Positions 4,282-12,336 of a stretch of DNA of 33,696 nucleotides are shown piece by piece. Source of the DNA: Oligoflexaceae bacterium. GTDB lineage: Bacteria > Bdellovibrionota_B > Oligoflexia > Oligoflexales > Oligoflexaceae. The notes below the pieces were generated by a model, which worked only from the letters and a program-made list of their open reading frames with translations, searched no databases and had not been told where the DNA came from. Numbering within the stretch: the first letter of the stretch is position 1; each line of letters opens with the position of its first letter. The position numbers and the translations under genes were made by a program. Location: positions 1-33,696 of the forward strand of contig CANJJY010000002.1 of NCBI GenBank assembly GCA_947474445.1. Reading direction: 5' to 3'.

Positions 4282-5451
4282 ATGAGCGATTATGCCGGTC
4301 TTGAAAAGCTGCGACAACTCATCCAGCCGCGCCTCGATTTGATTCGAGAGCAAGGCCGATGGCGCTCGCTGCGGACCCTCGAGCCGCAGTCTGGAGCGAT
4401 TGATCTTACCCACAACGACTACCTCGGTCTCAGGCACGATCCGATCTTTCAAGCGCGCGCCCGAGAGGCCGCGGCGGCCTGGCCCGTAGGCGCGGGGGCG
4501 AGTCGATTGTTAGGTGGCGAGCATTCTATCTATGCTGAGGTTGAACGGGCCTTTGCCACATGGAAAGGCGCGGAGTCGGCCCTCTATTTCTCGTCGGGCT
4601 ACGCGGCTAACGAAGCTCTGATGGCAGCCCTAGCTCACTCAGGGGCGGTATTTTTCTCAGATGCGCTGAATCACGCCAGTTTGATCGACGGACTACGCCT
4701 CGCGCGTCTGCAACCGCAGCAAAAAGTGATCTTCCCTCACAATGATTGGCAGTTTCTCGAAGAGAGCCTGCGGCGATCCGAAGCTCCCCTCAAGCTCATC
4801 GTGACCGAAGCCCTCTTCAGTATGGACGGTGATTTTTGCCCTCTCGATGAACTCCGGACTCTCTGTTGCCGCTACCAAGCGCTCCTCGTCGTCGATGAGG
4901 CCCATAGTCTTGGTCTCTACGGTCCCCGAGGCGCAGGTTTCGCGGCGGCCTGTGGATTTCCAGGCGATGCGATGATCAGCGTCAACCCTTGCGGCAAAGC
5001 CATGGCCGCTGCAGGGGCTTTTATCGCAGGACCTAGGTGGCTGCGGGACTATTTGATCAATACCGCGAGGAGCTTCATTTTCAGTACGGGCGCCTCGCCC
5101 TGGCTTGCCGCCGCCCTGGGAGAAGCGATCGCCTATGTGCCGACTCTTGAAACGCGACGTCAGACTCTGCGATCTCAAGCCGCACGTATGCGGAGCGAAC
5201 TATCCAAACTCGATTTTGATATTGGTCCATCATCGTCTCATATCATTCCGTTGATAACAGGGGATGAGGCACGCGCCTTGCATGCAGAAGAATGGATGCG
5301 ACAGCGCGGAATCCTCGTTCGGGCCATTCGACCCCCAACAGTCCCAGAGGCGAGCTGCCGCCTGCGACTCTCGCTGCATGCTGGCCTCGACGAGGCCGCC
5401 GTCGACTCGATTCTGTTGACCTTCAAGGAGCTTCGCTATGCACTTTCCTAA
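4282..5451 (+). CDS. bioF: 8-amino-7-oxononanoate synthase BioF
   Basis: 389 aa; DLTHNDYLGLRHDP, GAGASRLLGGEHSIYAEVE, VVDEAHSLGLYGPRGAG; in the biotin cluster. The usual PLP Lys region reads NPCGKAMAAAGAFIAG. Confidence 0.95.
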   Translation: MSDYAGLEKLRQLIQPRLDLIREQGRWRSLRTLEPQSGAIDLTHNDYLGLRHDPIFQARAREAAAAWPVGAGASRLLGGEHSIYAEVERAFATWKGAESALYFSSGYAANEALMAALAHSGAVFFSDALNHASLIDGLRLARLQPQQKVIFPHNDWQFLEESLRRSEAPLKLIVTEALFSMDGDFCPLDELRTLCCRYQALLVVDEAHSLGLYGPRGAGFAAACGFPGDAMISVNPCGKAMAAAGAFIAGPRWLRDYLINTARSFIFSTGASPWLAAALGEAIAYVPTLETRRQTLRSQAARMRSELSKLDFDIGPSSSHIIPLITGDEARALHAEEWMRQRGILVRAIRPPTVPEASCRLRLSLHAGLDEAAVDSILLTFKELRYALS

Positions 5452-7486
5452 CCTTTTCGTGACTGCGACCGGGACCGATGTAGGCAAGACCATCATCAGC
5501 GCGGCCTTACTGGACGCGGCTGCCCGTCATGGTCATCAGCTGCAGTACTGGAAACCTGTGCAGACGGGAGGCGTTGATATCGATCGCCACAGTATCGAAG
5601 CCGTTCTCAGTCGACCATTACTGTGCCCTTTGCCCAGTTTTTCTTATAGCAAGCCGGCCTCTCCCGACCAAGCCGCCGTCGCCGACAAGGCAGATCCACC
5701 TTATGTCGCGACTCTCATGCAACGATTTCGTCAGCATAGTGCGGGACCTTTACTGGTCGAAGGAGCTGGTGGATTGGCCACGCCGCTCAACGAGGACAAC
5801 GAAACGTGGCTTGGATTTATGATCGCGACGCGCTTGCCGGTCGTACTCGTTTCGAGCACGCGACTCGGGACGATCAATCACACCGTCCTGAGTCTCGAGA
5901 CTCTCGATGCCCATGATATCCCTGTGCTCGGCGTCATCCTCAACGGTCCGCACGATCAGGCGAACCTCCAATCTCTTCAAAGGATGATGCCTCATCACCG
6001 CTTTACAAGTTTTCCTGAAATCAACTTTGAATCCCAATCGACTCAATGGATGGCAGCCACCGATGGGCTGTGGAAATTTCTTAAAGAAGCTTCCGAAGAA
6101 ATCGACGAAGCCACCTGGATCGAGACGGATAAAAAGGTTCTCTGGCATCCCTATACCCAGCATAAGACCGCTCCTGCTCCCGCGCCTATCGTTCGAGCCA
6201 AAGGCATCCACCTCTATACCGAAGAGGGCGACGAGCTGATCGATGGGACTTCTTCTTGGTGGACCTGTTCGATCGGTCACGGTCATCCGGAAATTGGAGC
6301 TGCGATCAGGCGTCAGCAATCTCGATTGGATCATTGTATTTTTGCAGGCGCGACCCATCGCCCTGCAGTTGAGTTAGCCGAAAAGCTCATTGACTTGACC
6401 GAGGGCCACCTCCAGCGCGTCTTTTATTCAGACAATGGATCCTGTGCCGTTGAAGTCGCGTTGAAAATGGCTTCTCAGGGCTGGAAGAATAAGGGCGTCG
6501 CCGATCGTCATCTATTTTTGCATTTCAAAGGCGCCTATCACGGCGATACCTTCGGTGCGATGGCCTTGGCTGAACACGATGGTCTGCATGGGCATCAGCG
6601 CGGCGGTTTGCTCGCCGGGGTTGAAGCAACTCCTGTCACCGCGCATCGCTCGCGTCTTTGCCCTGATGGACCTGCGTCCTTGGCCCAAGGTTTGGACGCG
6701 CTCGATGCAATCTTTGCGCGTCATCACCAAAATCTGGCCGGAGTCCTCATCGAACCCTGGCTCCAAGGTGCCTCAGGCATGAATATCCAGGAACTCAGCT
6801 GGCTTCAGCATCTCGGCCGCCTTTGCCGCTTGCATGGTGTACCGCTTATTCTCGATGAAGTCTTCACCGGCATGGGCCGAGCCGGCGCCCCCTTTGCCTT
6901 CCTGAGAGCCGGTCTTGAGCCCGATATCGTCTGTATTGCCAAAGGCCTGACCGGCGGCAACCTCCCCTTGGCGGCCACTCTCTGCCGAGAAGATATTTTT
7001 GCGCAATTTGAAGACGACGATAGGCAGAAAGCCTTGCTCCATGGCCACACTTTCAGCGGCAATCCGATCGGCTGCGCCGCGGCTCTGGCAACTCTCAAGG
7101 TCTATAAGAAACAGAATCTGTTCGATCGCGCATTGCAGATCGAAGATCGCTTTATGCAATGGCTCGAGTCGCAAGATGATCGGATTGAAAATGGCCGCAC
7201 TCTGGGTGGAGTCATGGCCTGGGAAATTGCGGGAACAGGCTTCGGCAGTTACTTTAGCCCCGCAGCTGAGGCTATGCCGGCTATAGCGCGCCGTCATGGT
7301 CTCCTTTTGCGCCCCCTCGGCAACACCATGTATTTCGTTCCGCCTTTAAGCATTACTTCCTCTGAACTGGAAGATGCTTTGCAGAGAATTGAACGATGCC
7401 TGGACGATATGCTCCCATTATCACTCAGCCATGGACTGACACCCGCAGAGCATGCCTTCGAGGACGGGGCGCAACTGAGCCCATAG
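5438..7486 (+). CDS. bioDA: Bifunctional dethiobiotin synthetase / DAPA aminotransferase fusion (BioD-BioA)
   Basis: 682 aa single ORF. N-terminal ATGTDVGKT P-loop and YWKPVQTG (BioD); C-terminal LWHPYTQHK, GTSSWWTCSIGHGHPE, YSDNGSCAVEVALKMA, YHGDTFGAM, ILDEVFTGMGRAG, CIAKGLTGGNLPLAATL (BioA, PLP lysine). Overlaps bioF by 14 nt. Confidence 0.95.
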   Translation: MHFPNLFVTATGTDVGKTIISAALLDAAARHGHQLQYWKPVQTGGVDIDRHSIEAVLSRPLLCPLPSFSYSKPASPDQAAVADKADPPYVATLMQRFRQHSAGPLLVEGAGGLATPLNEDNETWLGFMIATRLPVVLVSSTRLGTINHTVLSLETLDAHDIPVLGVILNGPHDQANLQSLQRMMPHHRFTSFPEINFESQSTQWMAATDGLWKFLKEASEEIDEATWIETDKKVLWHPYTQHKTAPAPAPIVRAKGIHLYTEEGDELIDGTSSWWTCSIGHGHPEIGAAIRRQQSRLDHCIFAGATHRPAVELAEKLIDLTEGHLQRVFYSDNGSCAVEVALKMASQGWKNKGVADRHLFLHFKGAYHGDTFGAMALAEHDGLHGHQRGGLLAGVEATPVTAHRSRLCPDGPASLAQGLDALDAIFARHHQNLAGVLIEPWLQGASGMNIQELSWLQHLGRLCRLHGVPLILDEVFTGMGRAGAPFAFLRAGLEPDIVCIAKGLTGGNLPLAATLCREDIFAQFEDDDRQKALLHGHTFSGNPIGCAAALATLKVYKKQNLFDRALQIEDRFMQWLESQDDRIENGRTLGGVMAWEIAGTGFGSYFSPAAEAMPAIARRHGLLLRPLGNTMYFVPPLSITSSELEDALQRIERCLDDMLPLSLSHGLTPAEHAFEDGAQLSP

Positions 7487-7497
7487 AGGAGATTTTT

Positions 7498-7983
7498 TTG
7501 CAGTTCAACAAACCTTTGCTGCACCAGGCCCTGCTTGCCCATTTACGGGAAGAACTGAATCATACCTTACTCGCGGCAGAAACAGCGCGCGAAGGTGCGA
7601 CTCACGAAGAAGCTTTGGCCAAAAGCAAGTACGATACCCATGGTCTCGAGCTCTCTTACCTAGCGGGCTCGCAATTTGAGAGAGCCCGCCTGCTCCAGTC
7701 GCAGGTCGCTCTCTTGAGTCGTACCAGCTTTCGCGATTTTGCCCAGGACGAGCCGATCGATCTCGGGGCTCTGGTCGAAGTGCGGGGCGCTCAAGCCAAA
7801 ACCGGGCACTATCTGATCTCGCTGGTTGGAGCCGGCATCAGTGTGCCACTGGACGGTACACTCATCCAAGTGATCTCACCCGATTCTTTGCTCGGTGAAG
7901 AACTGATGAATCGACGAGCTGGCGATCGCGTGGAAGTCGTCGAACGACCTGGGCTTGTCTGGGATATCATCTCCGTCTTTTAA
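7498..7983 (+). CDS. GreA/GreB C-terminal-domain-like protein (transcription elongation factor family)
   Basis: Frame given as 7396..7983; likely start is TTG at 7498 after GAGGAG. N-terminal helical region then DLGALVEVRG...LISLVGAGISVPLDGTLIQVISPDSLLGEELMNRRAGDRVEV, similar to the Gre C-domain ISP.SPLG.ALLGK..GD motif. Confidence 0.6.
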   Translation: MQFNKPLLHQALLAHLREELNHTLLAAETAREGATHEEALAKSKYDTHGLELSYLAGSQFERARLLQSQVALLSRTSFRDFAQDEPIDLGALVEVRGAQAKTGHYLISLVGAGISVPLDGTLIQVISPDSLLGEELMNRRAGDRVEVVERPGLVWDIISVF

Positions 7984-8136
7984 CTCTTCTTTTGCAGCAC
8001 CCACGCCGCCTTACGATGTAAGCACAAACGTGCTGTCTACCAGGCGCTGAGCTCAATGCACGCTTGCTTTTTTGACGCCTAAGGCTATTATGGCTCACAC
8101 AAACGCCTATGCCTATTTGACATCAAAAGGTAAGAT

Positions 8137-9366
8137 ATGAATAACTCAGTGTTTTTTTCCATCGTTCTCGTTTCTCTCGTCCAAGCCTGCGGTCCCCACT
8201 CATCCTCGTCGGAGACCAAAGCGGTCTGGGATGACCTGAATAGTCCCGCGATCATGGAAAAGGGTGGTACGCCCTTTAAAGGTTCCTACCTCAATCGTTG
8301 GAACGAACTTCCTTTGAAAGCCGAACTCAAGACGGTGCCTTGGTCTGATCACTACTGGCCGACGGCTAAAGGCGGTCTCACCTATCGCTGGAATGATTGG
8401 TCGATCAAAGATGAAGAGCTTCTCTATTCTTATCCACTTGAAGACGCGGATAAGATAAAGACAGCCGACACAGCGAAGCTTTCCCCTCTGGAAAAATTCG
8501 ATCTCTTTCTCGGTAAAACCGATTTCCCTTATACAGTGGCCGAACGCGATCGCACCCGGGTGTTGCGGACCGTCGCTAGCAGTCCCAGCTATGACAGTTC
8601 CTATACGATTCCAAGTTGGGAAGGTCTCTGCCACGCCTGGGCTCCCGCAACGCTCGCCTTTGAAGAGCCAGGTGCTGTGACCTTGAAAAGCAAAAAAGGA
8701 TTGGAGATCGAGTTTGGCAGCAGCGACGTCAAAGCACTGCTCGTCTATTTCCTTCATAGTGTTAAAAGCCCAAAAGCCGTCATGCTCGGTCAACGCTGCG
8801 AAGAAGATTTCGCAGGACTCAAAACCGAGCTCGATGCTGGCACGCTCACCCAGGAAGATTATGATCGTCGCATAAACGATGCGCCCTGCATCGACACCAA
8901 TGCCGGCTCTTTTCACATGGTCATCGCCAATGAGATTGGCCGTCGCAATCAAGGTTTCGTCGTCGACGTCACGCGCGATCAAGAAGTTTGGAATCAACCG
9001 GTCTTCGCCTATGAAACAAAGGTCCTCGAAGAATCGCAAAAAGCTAGTCCGGGAGCGGCGCCCGGAACCGTCAAGGAGATCACGGTCGAGACGACGATGA
9101 AGTATATCCAGGAAGTCACCCAGCAGTGGGATCCCGGTGAAGCTCCCGAGGCCTTAGCGGAAAAGGTATATCAGTATCGCTTGGAGCTCGATTCTCACGA
9201 TGGCATCATCGGCGGCGCATGGATTTCTGACGAGCGTCCGGACTTCATGTGGAAGCGCGAAACACCGCAGTTCAAGGGCGAATTTAAAGCTATCGAAGAG
9301 ATCTACAAAGCTTCTTTGAAGGCCAAAGCGACCTCGACGAAAAGAGACCAATCTGCGGCGCATTGA
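8137..9366 (+). CDS. Secreted lipoprotein similar to transglutaminase elicitor (Phytophthora GP42-like) family
   Basis: 409 aa; lipobox-like LVSLVQACG; SWEGLCHAWAPA (candidate Cys nucleophile), NAGSFHMVIANEIG (candidate His), GFVVDVTRDQEVWNQPV, containing the Pep-13 core VWNQPV. Confidence 0.7.
   Translation: MNNSVFFSIVLVSLVQACGPHSSSSETKAVWDDLNSPAIMEKGGTPFKGSYLNRWNELPLKAELKTVPWSDHYWPTAKGGLTYRWNDWSIKDEELLYSYPLEDADKIKTADTAKLSPLEKFDLFLGKTDFPYTVAERDRTRVLRTVASSPSYDSSYTIPSWEGLCHAWAPATLAFEEPGAVTLKSKKGLEIEFGSSDVKALLVYFLHSVKSPKAVMLGQRCEEDFAGLKTELDAGTLTQEDYDRRINDAPCIDTNAGSFHMVIANEIGRRNQGFVVDVTRDQEVWNQPVFAYETKVLEESQKASPGAAPGTVKEITVETTMKYIQEVTQQWDPGEAPEALAEKVYQYRLELDSHDGIIGGAWISDERPDFMWKRETPQFKGEFKAIEEIYKASLKAKATSTKRDQSAAH
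8986..9003 (+). other. Pep-13 core-like peptide VWNQPV inside the transglutaminase-like CDS
   Basis: Codons GTT TGG AAT CAA CCG GTC, in frame with the 8137 start. Confidence 0.85.
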
Positions 9367-9417
9367 GCACCTTTAGTCTTTCTCCGTCATCGCATGCCGA
9401 TGGCGGAGATAAAATAC

Positions 9418-10614
9418 TTAGGGATCAATCAGGGAAAGTGTCCAGATTTCATCGAACTGAACCAAGTGTCCTCCTCTATCTTCGCCGAGGCCTCCTACGA
9501 CATGCACCCGATCGGGAGCTTGAAAAACAAAGCAATGAGCGATGCGACCCAATGGAAACTCTAGCCAGGGTAGAGCCTGCCATTGCTTGTGCTCGCTCGA
9601 CAAAAGATAGACCACCTGGTTAAAGCTTCCGTCGGCAAAGCGTCCCCCACTCAACAAAAACCCTTGCCCTTCAATCCAGGTCATTTGCGGATGAGAAAGA
9701 TCTTCAAAGCGAGCGTCGGGGATGGGTGGCAAGGGAGTCCAACTCTGATCGCTGATCCTATAGACCGCGCCCCTGTTGGCTCGCTTGTCCTCACTCGCCC
9801 CTCCCCAGATATAAACCTCGCCGGCGAACTCATGGGTGTGCATGTTGGCTCTTGGCGATAGGACTTCCACTGGAGGTGCTGGAATCTCTTTGACCTCGCC
9901 TGTAGAAAGATCGATCCAATATCCATCGCTTTTCAACTTTTTGCTGCGGCCTGCAGAATCCAGCGGCTCCCAACCACCCCAAATCATCAACTTACCCTCG
10001 ATCGCGAGAGCGCTATGTCCCATTCGCGAGGGGATGGTTCGTTTGAGGGGCAGTTGAAACCAGGTCAAATTCGAGAGATCGATGCCATTCAAGGCTTCTT
10101 CCCTATTTCCTTGCCTTCCACCGTAGAGCCACACGCGCTTCTCATGCCCTATTAAGCTCGCACGCCGCCGCGGAGCCTTGTCCAGCGGGGAGCCGAGACC
10201 TTGCCAGCGATGCCGATCGACCTGGAACATGAAGCTATCGGAGAGAACTTCTCCTTGGGGACTGACACCACCGACGATAAAAAACTGATCATTGAATCCC
10301 GTGGCAGAGGCCTCCACGCGTGGACGGGGGCCGGCGCTTTCATCGAAGACAGTCCACTTTCCCTTCTCATAGATTCCAAGACGATTGTTCCAAATCTCAT
10401 CTTGATCGTCGCGCGTGCCACCCCAAACAATCAGACGTTGATCGTTCGCATAGCAAGAGGCATGGGCGAGGGGACCTAACTCTGGGGGCAAGCGTGACAT
10501 CTGCCAGGTGCGACTCTGCCCAGCGAGTTCAGGTGCAGGAGTAAGACATCCATTCGTCAGTTGACCGCAAGTCACTAGAAAAATGAAGACCATCCAGAAA
10601 GACTTCATGAACAA
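9418..10614 (-). CDS. Kelch-type beta-propeller lipoprotein
   Basis: 398 aa; signal/lipobox-like LTNGC; repeated kelch motifs (RLIVWGGTRDD, QFFIVGGVSPQG, RVWLYGGRQGN, KLMIWGGWEP, EVYIWGGASED, GFLLSGGRFAD, RVHVVGGLGED). Confidence 0.8.
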   Translation of the reverse strand: MFMKSFWMVFIFLVTCGQLTNGCLTPAPELAGQSRTWQMSRLPPELGPLAHASCYANDQRLIVWGGTRDDQDEIWNNRLGIYEKGKWTVFDESAGPRPRVEASATGFNDQFFIVGGVSPQGEVLSDSFMFQVDRHRWQGLGSPLDKAPRRRASLIGHEKRVWLYGGRQGNREEALNGIDLSNLTWFQLPLKRTIPSRMGHSALAIEGKLMIWGGWEPLDSAGRSKKLKSDGYWIDLSTGEVKEIPAPPVEVLSPRANMHTHEFAGEVYIWGGASEDKRANRGAVYRISDQSWTPLPPIPDARFEDLSHPQMTWIEGQGFLLSGGRFADGSFNQVVYLLSSEHKQWQALPWLEFPLGRIAHCFVFQAPDRVHVVGGLGEDRGGHLVQFDEIWTLSLIDP

Positions 10615-10755: not shown

Positions 10756-12336
10756 TTAGATTCCAGACTCGCCGCGTGGGCCGCGTGGACCTTCAGGTCC
10801 TTGAGGACCAGCGGGACCCTGTGGTCCTGCGGGGCCGATAGCACCCGTTTCACCGCGTGGACCGCGCGCGCCTTCAGGTCCCTGAGGACCCGCGGGACCC
10901 GTGAGACCTGTTGCTCCGGTTTCGCCTTTTGGCCCTGTTGGTCCAGCCACTCCGGTGTCACCTTTCAAACCGCGCGCACCCGCTGCGCCGGCTGCGCCCG
11001 TCTCACCTTTTGGACCCATTGGTCCTGCCACTCCAGGCTCACCTTTAGGCCCGGTGAGGCCTATCGCACCAGCAGGTCCGATGTCACCTTTAGGTCCGCT
11101 TGGTCCTATGGCACCCGTTTCACCACGGGGACCGGCAGGTCCGGTTGCACCTTGGGGACCGACGTCACCTTTAGGTCCCACGGGACCAGGCGCACCGTTT
11201 GCTCCACTGATACCGCGTTCTCCCGCAGGTCCAGCCGGACCTTGAGGGCCTGCCACTCCCGGAGCTCCGGCGTCTCCTTTCGGACCGGCAGGACCCGTGA
11301 GCCCCTGAGATCCTACTTCACCTTTTGGACCGATATCTCCCTTCGGACCTTGTGGTCCTGCCGCTCCCGTTTCCCCTCGCGGTCCATTGGCACCAGCTGG
11401 GCCCTGAGGTCCTGCCTCACCGCGCGGCCCAGGTAGACCGATGGCGCCCGTATCACCTTTGAGACCTTGATCTCCTTTTGGTCCAGGAAGTCCAGTGGGA
11501 CCGGCAGGTCCGGCTGTGCCTCGAGCTCCGGCGTCGCCTTTGAGACCTTGAGGGCCGGCGGGCCCCGCGACTCCAGGAGTACCTTGAGGCCCGGCGGGTC
11601 CGGCAGGTCCAACTGTGCCTCCGAGAAGATTTAAGAGATAGAAGGGAACCCGTTGATCATGAGACGAACTAACCAATCGAATTTCGAGACTTTCAGGATC
11701 GCGGGTAAAGATCTTGTCGGGGATAGGAACCTGGGTTCCAAGAACTGCCATGTGCGTGCAGGTCTTGTTGGTCACAGTTTCCATTTTTTCTTCGCCCCAA
11801 AGCTTTTCGCCCGTCGCCTTGTCGTAAATGCTGTACTTGTAATCGACATCGATCGTACAGCTCGCGCCTCGACTCTGACAATAGCACTTGTCGGCCACGA
11901 TGTGAAACACGCCCACGTTGGTATGCGTCGTGTGTTTTTCGCCCGATGGTGCTGGCGCTGGAGGAGTGGAAGCCAATTGAAATCCAACGAACTTAGGGTT
12001 TTTGTGAGCAAGTATGTGACTATCATATATTTCAAAAGTCAAAATCCATTGGGAAGCCACGCTGCCGGGAGTTACATTCGCGGCATCAATCGTCACCTCT
12101 CCTCTAAATTGCCGCTTCTTGGAAGTTGTCGTCACTGTGACTTTTGAAAAATTAAGGGGAACAGAAACCGGATCATCGTCGTAGGTAACCGAGGCTATAT
12201 CCTGCAGCCATTGCAAATCTTCGTCGTCGTCATCAGAATCGACCTGTATCGTGAAGTGAATCGCCTGCGCAGCGGCAGGCCCTGCCTGTGCAAATCCAAT
12301 CATCATCAAAAGCAGTAGAAAAATCTTTTGTTGCAT
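10756..12336 (-). CDS. Secreted collagen-like protein (bacterial collagen, N-terminal globular head plus Gly-X-Y tail)
   Basis: 526 aa; signal peptide [25 protein letters not shown]; ~238-aa N-terminal region, then uninterrupted Gly-X-Y repeats to the stop codon. Confidence 0.92.
10759..11619 (-). repeat. Collagen Gly-X-Y triplet-repeat coding tract (95 complete triplets plus terminal GI by hand count)
   Basis: Direct reading of the translation from [12 protein letters not shown] ... to [11 protein letters not shown] stop. Confidence 0.93.

Follow-up and report, generated by a model that had tools for sequence, protein, structure and literature searches.

The closest described relatives of the protein studied here are the GP42 transglutaminases of oomycetes, represented in the PDB by GP42 of Phytophthora sojae (3TW5), a cell-wall enzyme recognised by plants and the source of Pep-13. 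A 2016 review citing the 2011 structure paper restricts GP42 homologues to oomycetes and certain marine Vibrio, and has an ancestral oomycete acquire the gene from Vibrio (PMC4915311). In Phytophthora, 14-17 copies are found per genome (PMC7285336), and the domain is also part of the carbohydrate-binding CBEL proteins of Pythium (PMC7720654). According to a review of papain-like enzymes, GP42 has no His at the canonical place of the active site and employs the one that immediately follows the Cys (PMC10318531). Other well-known transglutaminases, of the Streptomyces mobaraensis and mammalian types, share with the protein described below the proposed reaction only; the PDB sequence search and Foldseek gave no sequence match and no significant structural match to them.

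The window, that is the whole stretch of 33,696 nucleotides analysed, contains at 8137..9366 on the forward strand one uninterrupted ORF (409 aa) that starts with ATG, just before which stands AAAAGGTAAGAT. From the ORF, its PF16683 profile and its match to 3TW5, it is annotated as the CDS of an exported putative lipoprotein homologous to the GP42-type transglutaminases. The protein begins with MNNSVFFSIVLVSLVQAC-GPHSSSS, which resembles a lipoprotein signal, and residues 1-18 (8137..8190) read as a signal peptide whose hydrophobic stretch ends in the lipobox VQAC18. The lipobox that the original prediction had claimed would be a slightly atypical one, Gln at -2 being unusual against the consensus [LVI][ASTVI][GAS]C, and the n-region carries no positive charge. 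In the AF2 model this part forms a helix at 7-17, after which comes a linker of low confidence. At the other end, the window protein has no additional sugar-binding domain of the kind found in some relatives.

On Pfam, the TGase_elicitor domain (PF16683) matches residues 53-373 (8293..9255) over profile positions 15-331 of 361, with an E value of 3e-37 and a score of 128.7 bits (cut-off 25), while no NCBIfam family was matched. In a sequence search of the PDB the only convincing match was 3TW5 (E 5e-24), the next one standing at E 0.26. The AF2 model, built from 42 aligned relatives, has a pLDDT of 89.9 and a pTM of 0.87, and Foldseek against the PDB aligned it to 3tw5_A with an E value of 1.7e-20, a probability of 1.00 and a TM of 0.75 on target length, no other PDB match falling below 0.001. 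The resemblance to GP42 first noticed on the sequence is hence borne out by the profile search proposed with it, which excludes an absence of similarity, and by the fold of the model. Given this agreement of sequence and predicted fold, membership of the window protein in the GP42/TGase_elicitor family is supported; the family is an already named one, and transglutaminase chemistry would be carried over from GP42, in which the activity depends on Ca2+. Both proteins have in common the Pfam family, the fold, the Cys position, the His and Asp motifs, VWNQPV and export, but they are ~29% identical, the window protein is a bacterial putative lipoprotein and GP42 has F and Y where the family otherwise keeps the extra cysteines C221 and C251. 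The nearest bacterial relatives, PF16683 proteins of other Bdellovibrionota (Halobacteriovorax, Bacteriovorax, Pseudobacteriovorax, Silvanigrellales), are up to ~52% identical and of the same size class with the same motifs, but many bear a plain signal peptide instead of a lipobox and some have lectin or ankyrin C-termini.

Conservation was counted over 134 diverse aligned rows, among which the crystal mutant of GP42 was included. The Cys motif SWEGLCHAWAPA (8614..8649) holds the putative nucleophile C165 (8629-8631), a Cys in 132 of the 134 rows, the exceptions being the GP42 crystal mutant and one paralogue, L100, with Glu. In the model C165 starts the helix 165-174, and in the sequence alignments it pairs with a Ser of 3TW5, which we take to be the C290S mutation of GP42. 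The His motif NAGSFHMVIANEIG (8899..8940) contains H260 (8914-8916), which lies on the helix 256-269 and is found in all 134 members. The end of the FVVD strand (8956..8967) brings the acidic D277 (8965-8967) just after the strand 274-276, with 131 Asp and 3 Glu at this position, and N286 is invariant (134/134); D277 and V284-V289 (VWNQPV) both lie inside FVVDVTRDQEVWNQPV. The Cys, His and Asp motifs that the original prediction had picked out coincide with invariant residues of this alignment. H166 (8632-8634), the His adjoining the Cys, is present in 111/134 rows and its position varies between clades, being H or N/D/E/T. In a clade with GHCNG it is occupied by Asn, and two members of this clade in the source genome nevertheless reach 117 and 123 bits against PF16683. 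Given that H260 is invariant and H166 is not, the alignment suggests that H260, rather than the His next to the Cys, may do the general catalytic work in the family, and the catalytic set of the window protein would consist of C165, H260, D277 and N286. The exceptional L100 (7896-9002, forward strand, Oligoflexus sp. LF-bin-353), in which Glu replaces the nucleophilic Cys, is apparently a catalytically dead paralogue. In two divergent paralogues on other contigs of the source genome (L006 on C243 and L007 on C274) a large insertion separates the Cys motif from the His motif, and L007 has CD in place of CH.

The reading that we favour, by analogy with GP42 and with a probability of about 0.7, is that the window gene codes for a papain-like cysteine enzyme of PF16683, exported and probably anchored in the outer membrane, which acts as a transamidase (or deamidase) on extracytoplasmic proteins. 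C165 would form a thioester with a protein glutamine side chain, the acyl group of which would then be passed to lysine or another amine to give an isopeptide cross-link, or the glutamine would be deamidated. The targets would lie outside the cytoplasm, in the cell's own envelope, in biofilm or matrix, or on the surface of a neighbour or prey cell, and the lipobox points to an outer-membrane anchor. Signal peptides or lipoboxes were seen on most relatives inspected. A strict lipobox rule, applied as a regular expression, was satisfied by 58/143 family members, many of the remaining ones having ordinary signal peptides and some ORFs starting upstream; hence the idea that the whole family consists of lipoproteins was not upheld. 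Some relatives end in lectin domains, ricin-B in L011 and in the Vibrio copy and a mannan-binding MVL lectin in L054. Given these C-termini and the CBEL proteins of Pythium, carbohydrate-rich cell surfaces are a plausible place of action in bacteria and oomycetes. Furthermore, PolA is 65-71% identical to that of congeners and the best congener match of the transglutaminase homologue is 46%, in congener genomes whose incompleteness makes loss and missing data inseparable. A weaker conservation than that of a housekeeping gene, through rapid change or turnover, fits an interaction-type role.

Around the gene, the window shows no operon and no adjoining gene indicating a substrate. Upstream lie a biotin operon and one ORF of no assigned family; the gene downstream, which encodes a Kelch protein, is read from the other strand. 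The biotin operon comprises BioB, BioF and a BioD-BioA fusion at 5438-7486 (forward strand), with AAA_26 and Aminotran_3 in one ORF of 682 aa. The Kelch-repeat protein, itself a putative lipoprotein, is convergent with the transglutaminase gene (9418-10614, reverse strand). Two genes away, at 10756-12336 (reverse strand), is found a secreted protein of 526 aa, the C-terminal half of which consists of collagen-like Gly-X-Y repeats (PF01391, 6 stretches). In L066, another Oligoflexaceae locus, a homologue of the upstream ORF lies near a transglutaminase relative, and in L152, from a genome of the same family, a Kelch protein 26-28% identical is located ~3-4 kb from a transglutaminase homologue. 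Beyond these two cases no conservation of the neighbours was found, and it was judged too weak to retain an operon partner.

To our knowledge, PF16683 activity has been measured on oomycete proteins only. Judged at the sequence level, ~29% identity to GP42 does not prove that the window protein performs the transglutaminase reaction, and papain-like folds also serve as proteases or deamidases, which counts against a fixed transglutaminase reading. A less likely alternative is a cysteine hydrolase of the GP42 fold (protease, glutaminase/deamidase or peptidoglycan amidase), for which transamidation would be secondary and which would digest or modify envelope proteins of prey or neighbours. Members of the papain-like superfamily are mostly hydrolases (PMC10318531), the family is expanded in Bdellovibrionota and the neighbours of the active-site Cys differ between clades, all of which would suit such an enzyme. 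However, the VWN(Q)P motif, which belongs to the Pep-13 region of GP42, is conserved throughout the family, the entire GP42 architecture is matched on Foldseek, and Silvanigrellaceae, listed as non-predatory (PMC11656739), are among the lineages carrying the family. A role of the family in predation is possible. Taken with these points, the transamidase (or deamidase) remains our preferred reading.

VWNQPV had been singled out by the original prediction as the first six residues of Pep-13, a 13-residue elicitor of immunity in potato and parsley, with the proposal that plants could sense it. In the phmmer alignment to 3TW5 these residues pair column by column with Pep-13 of GP42, so that the identity sits at the homologous position and reflects homology, not chance. 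The homologous stretch VWNQPVFAYETKV (8986..9024) is identical to Pep-13 (VWNQPVRGFKVYE) at 6/13 positions, all in the first half, positions 7-13 all being different; the 13-residue sequence is hence not present in full in the window protein. Other bacterial members reach 9/13 identity, namely L023 (VWNQPVYGFKTTI), L025, L028, L130, L072 and L113. Across the family, W285 is found in 132/134 aligned rows, N286 in every row, P288 in 113/134 and Q287 in 97/134, and a regular expression finds the exact VWNQPV in 49/144 members. On this alignment VWNQPV belongs to a family-wide motif, VWN(Q/Y/H/F)P (8986-9000). According to work by Brunner et al. from 2002, W231 and P234 are reportedly needed for transglutaminase and elicitor activity alike, which would explain why W and P are retained in bacteria with no known link to plants.

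Perception of the Pep-13-like stretch by plants, or an action of the protein on plant cell walls, seems very improbable to us. Both Pep-13 W2 and P5 are retained, and the W2A exchange leaves Pep-13 almost without activity in potato, so that W2 is needed (PMC6895089), but the need for W2 does not make it sufficient for perception. Indeed, the half that is kept is the family-wide one, found in marine and groundwater bacteria too, positions 7-13 are lost to identity and the host has no known plant link; the proposed plant sensing is thus not supported. A coincidental or convergent resemblance of an unrelated secreted protein, in favour of which there is nothing except the shortness of the match, is refuted by the collinear full-length homology and the fold shared with GP42 and deserves practically no credence.

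The family proved to be common and multi-copy across Bdellovibrionota, so that its extension to another lineage, as originally predicted, goes far beyond one protein. At least 8 loci scoring above the PF16683 cut-off were counted in the source genome, an assembly of 4.1 Mb in 465 contigs with a completeness of 82%. Family members were found in 34/38 genomes comprising the source genome, four congeners, three genomes of the same family and 26/30 other members of the order. Among genomes of at least 90% completeness, 38/43 in the same phylum and 98/192 in the phylum of Halobacteriovorax are positive, the latter with up to 13 matches each, counts which may exceed those of genes since one gene can give several pieces. 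No match to the family was observed in 14 well-known control genomes. Altogether at least 556 relatives were retrieved across named genomes, the best 80 of which are mostly titled Bacteriovoracales, Halobacteriovorax, Oligoflexia, Silvanigrellales, Pseudobacteriovorax or Bdellovibrio. The MAG titles of some relatives name other classes, and several of these have proteins identical to those of genomes of the same order or phylum (L030/G031, L039/G028, L027/G195). Searches of viral contigs gave 22 pattern matches, none of them a relative, and phages gave no match to the window protein. The distribution of the GP42 family is therefore wider than stated in the literature (PMC4915311). Among the papers searched, we found none joining the family with a phylum-wide multi-copy presence in Bdellovibrionota, although the species lists of Pfam/InterPro may already show it.

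Among plasmids, the only match, queried with the window protein and with GP42 alike, was one Vibrio owensii record. On this mobilizable plasmid (NZ_CP025798.1) a gene at 7665-9500 (forward strand, L101) combines PF16683 with a ricin-B lectin domain. Its product, WP_233902700, annotated as a ricin-type lectin domain protein, shares PF16683 (E 1.8e-41) and export with the window protein but is 29.5% identical to it, carries the additional lectin domain and belongs to another clade of the family. Trees of 142, 67 and 57 sequences, which contained one oomycete and one Vibrio sequence, placed the Vibrio protein inside a Bdellovibrionota clade with support of 99 (23 rows), and of 99/97 (21 rows) in another tree, and the window protein in a separate clade with proteins of Oligoflexales and Bacteriovoracia. 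It is possible that the plasmid was a vehicle of transfer of the family.

The position of the oomycete sequence is less clear. The best match of GP42 is the family member L029, with 135 bits, the Vibrio protein reaching 110 bits and the window protein 103 bits, and dozens of Bdellovibrionota proteins outscore the Vibrio protein against GP42 on BLAST and phmmer. However, the terminal branch of GP42 measures 1.9-2.8 changes per site and the AU test did not reject GP42 and Vibrio as one clade (p 0.556). Given so long a branch and this test, descent of GP42 from Bdellovibrionota rather than from Vibrio is not claimed. On these sequences the branch of GP42 is too long to place, and a specific link of the window protein to oomycetes is not supported.

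Taken as a whole, the broadest reading remains tentative, with odds clearly below even: Bdellovibrionota would be the main bacterial reservoir of the GP42 family and the source of the Vibrio gene, by way of a plasmid, and of the oomycete genes, the proteins would be exported cross-linkers acting at the contact with other cells, and the catalytic His would be H260 and not the one adjacent to the Cys. Since the family is multi-copy across Bdellovibrionota, the lone Vibrio sequence is nested there and dozens of proteins of this group score better than Vibrio against GP42, the question of the origin of the oomycete gene is reopened. The wide alignment makes the claim on the active site, H260 versus the Cys-adjacent His, testable by simple mutants. 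Finally, for a family whose biological role in Phytophthora is unknown (PMC7773600), these proteins offer model enzymes from bacteria.
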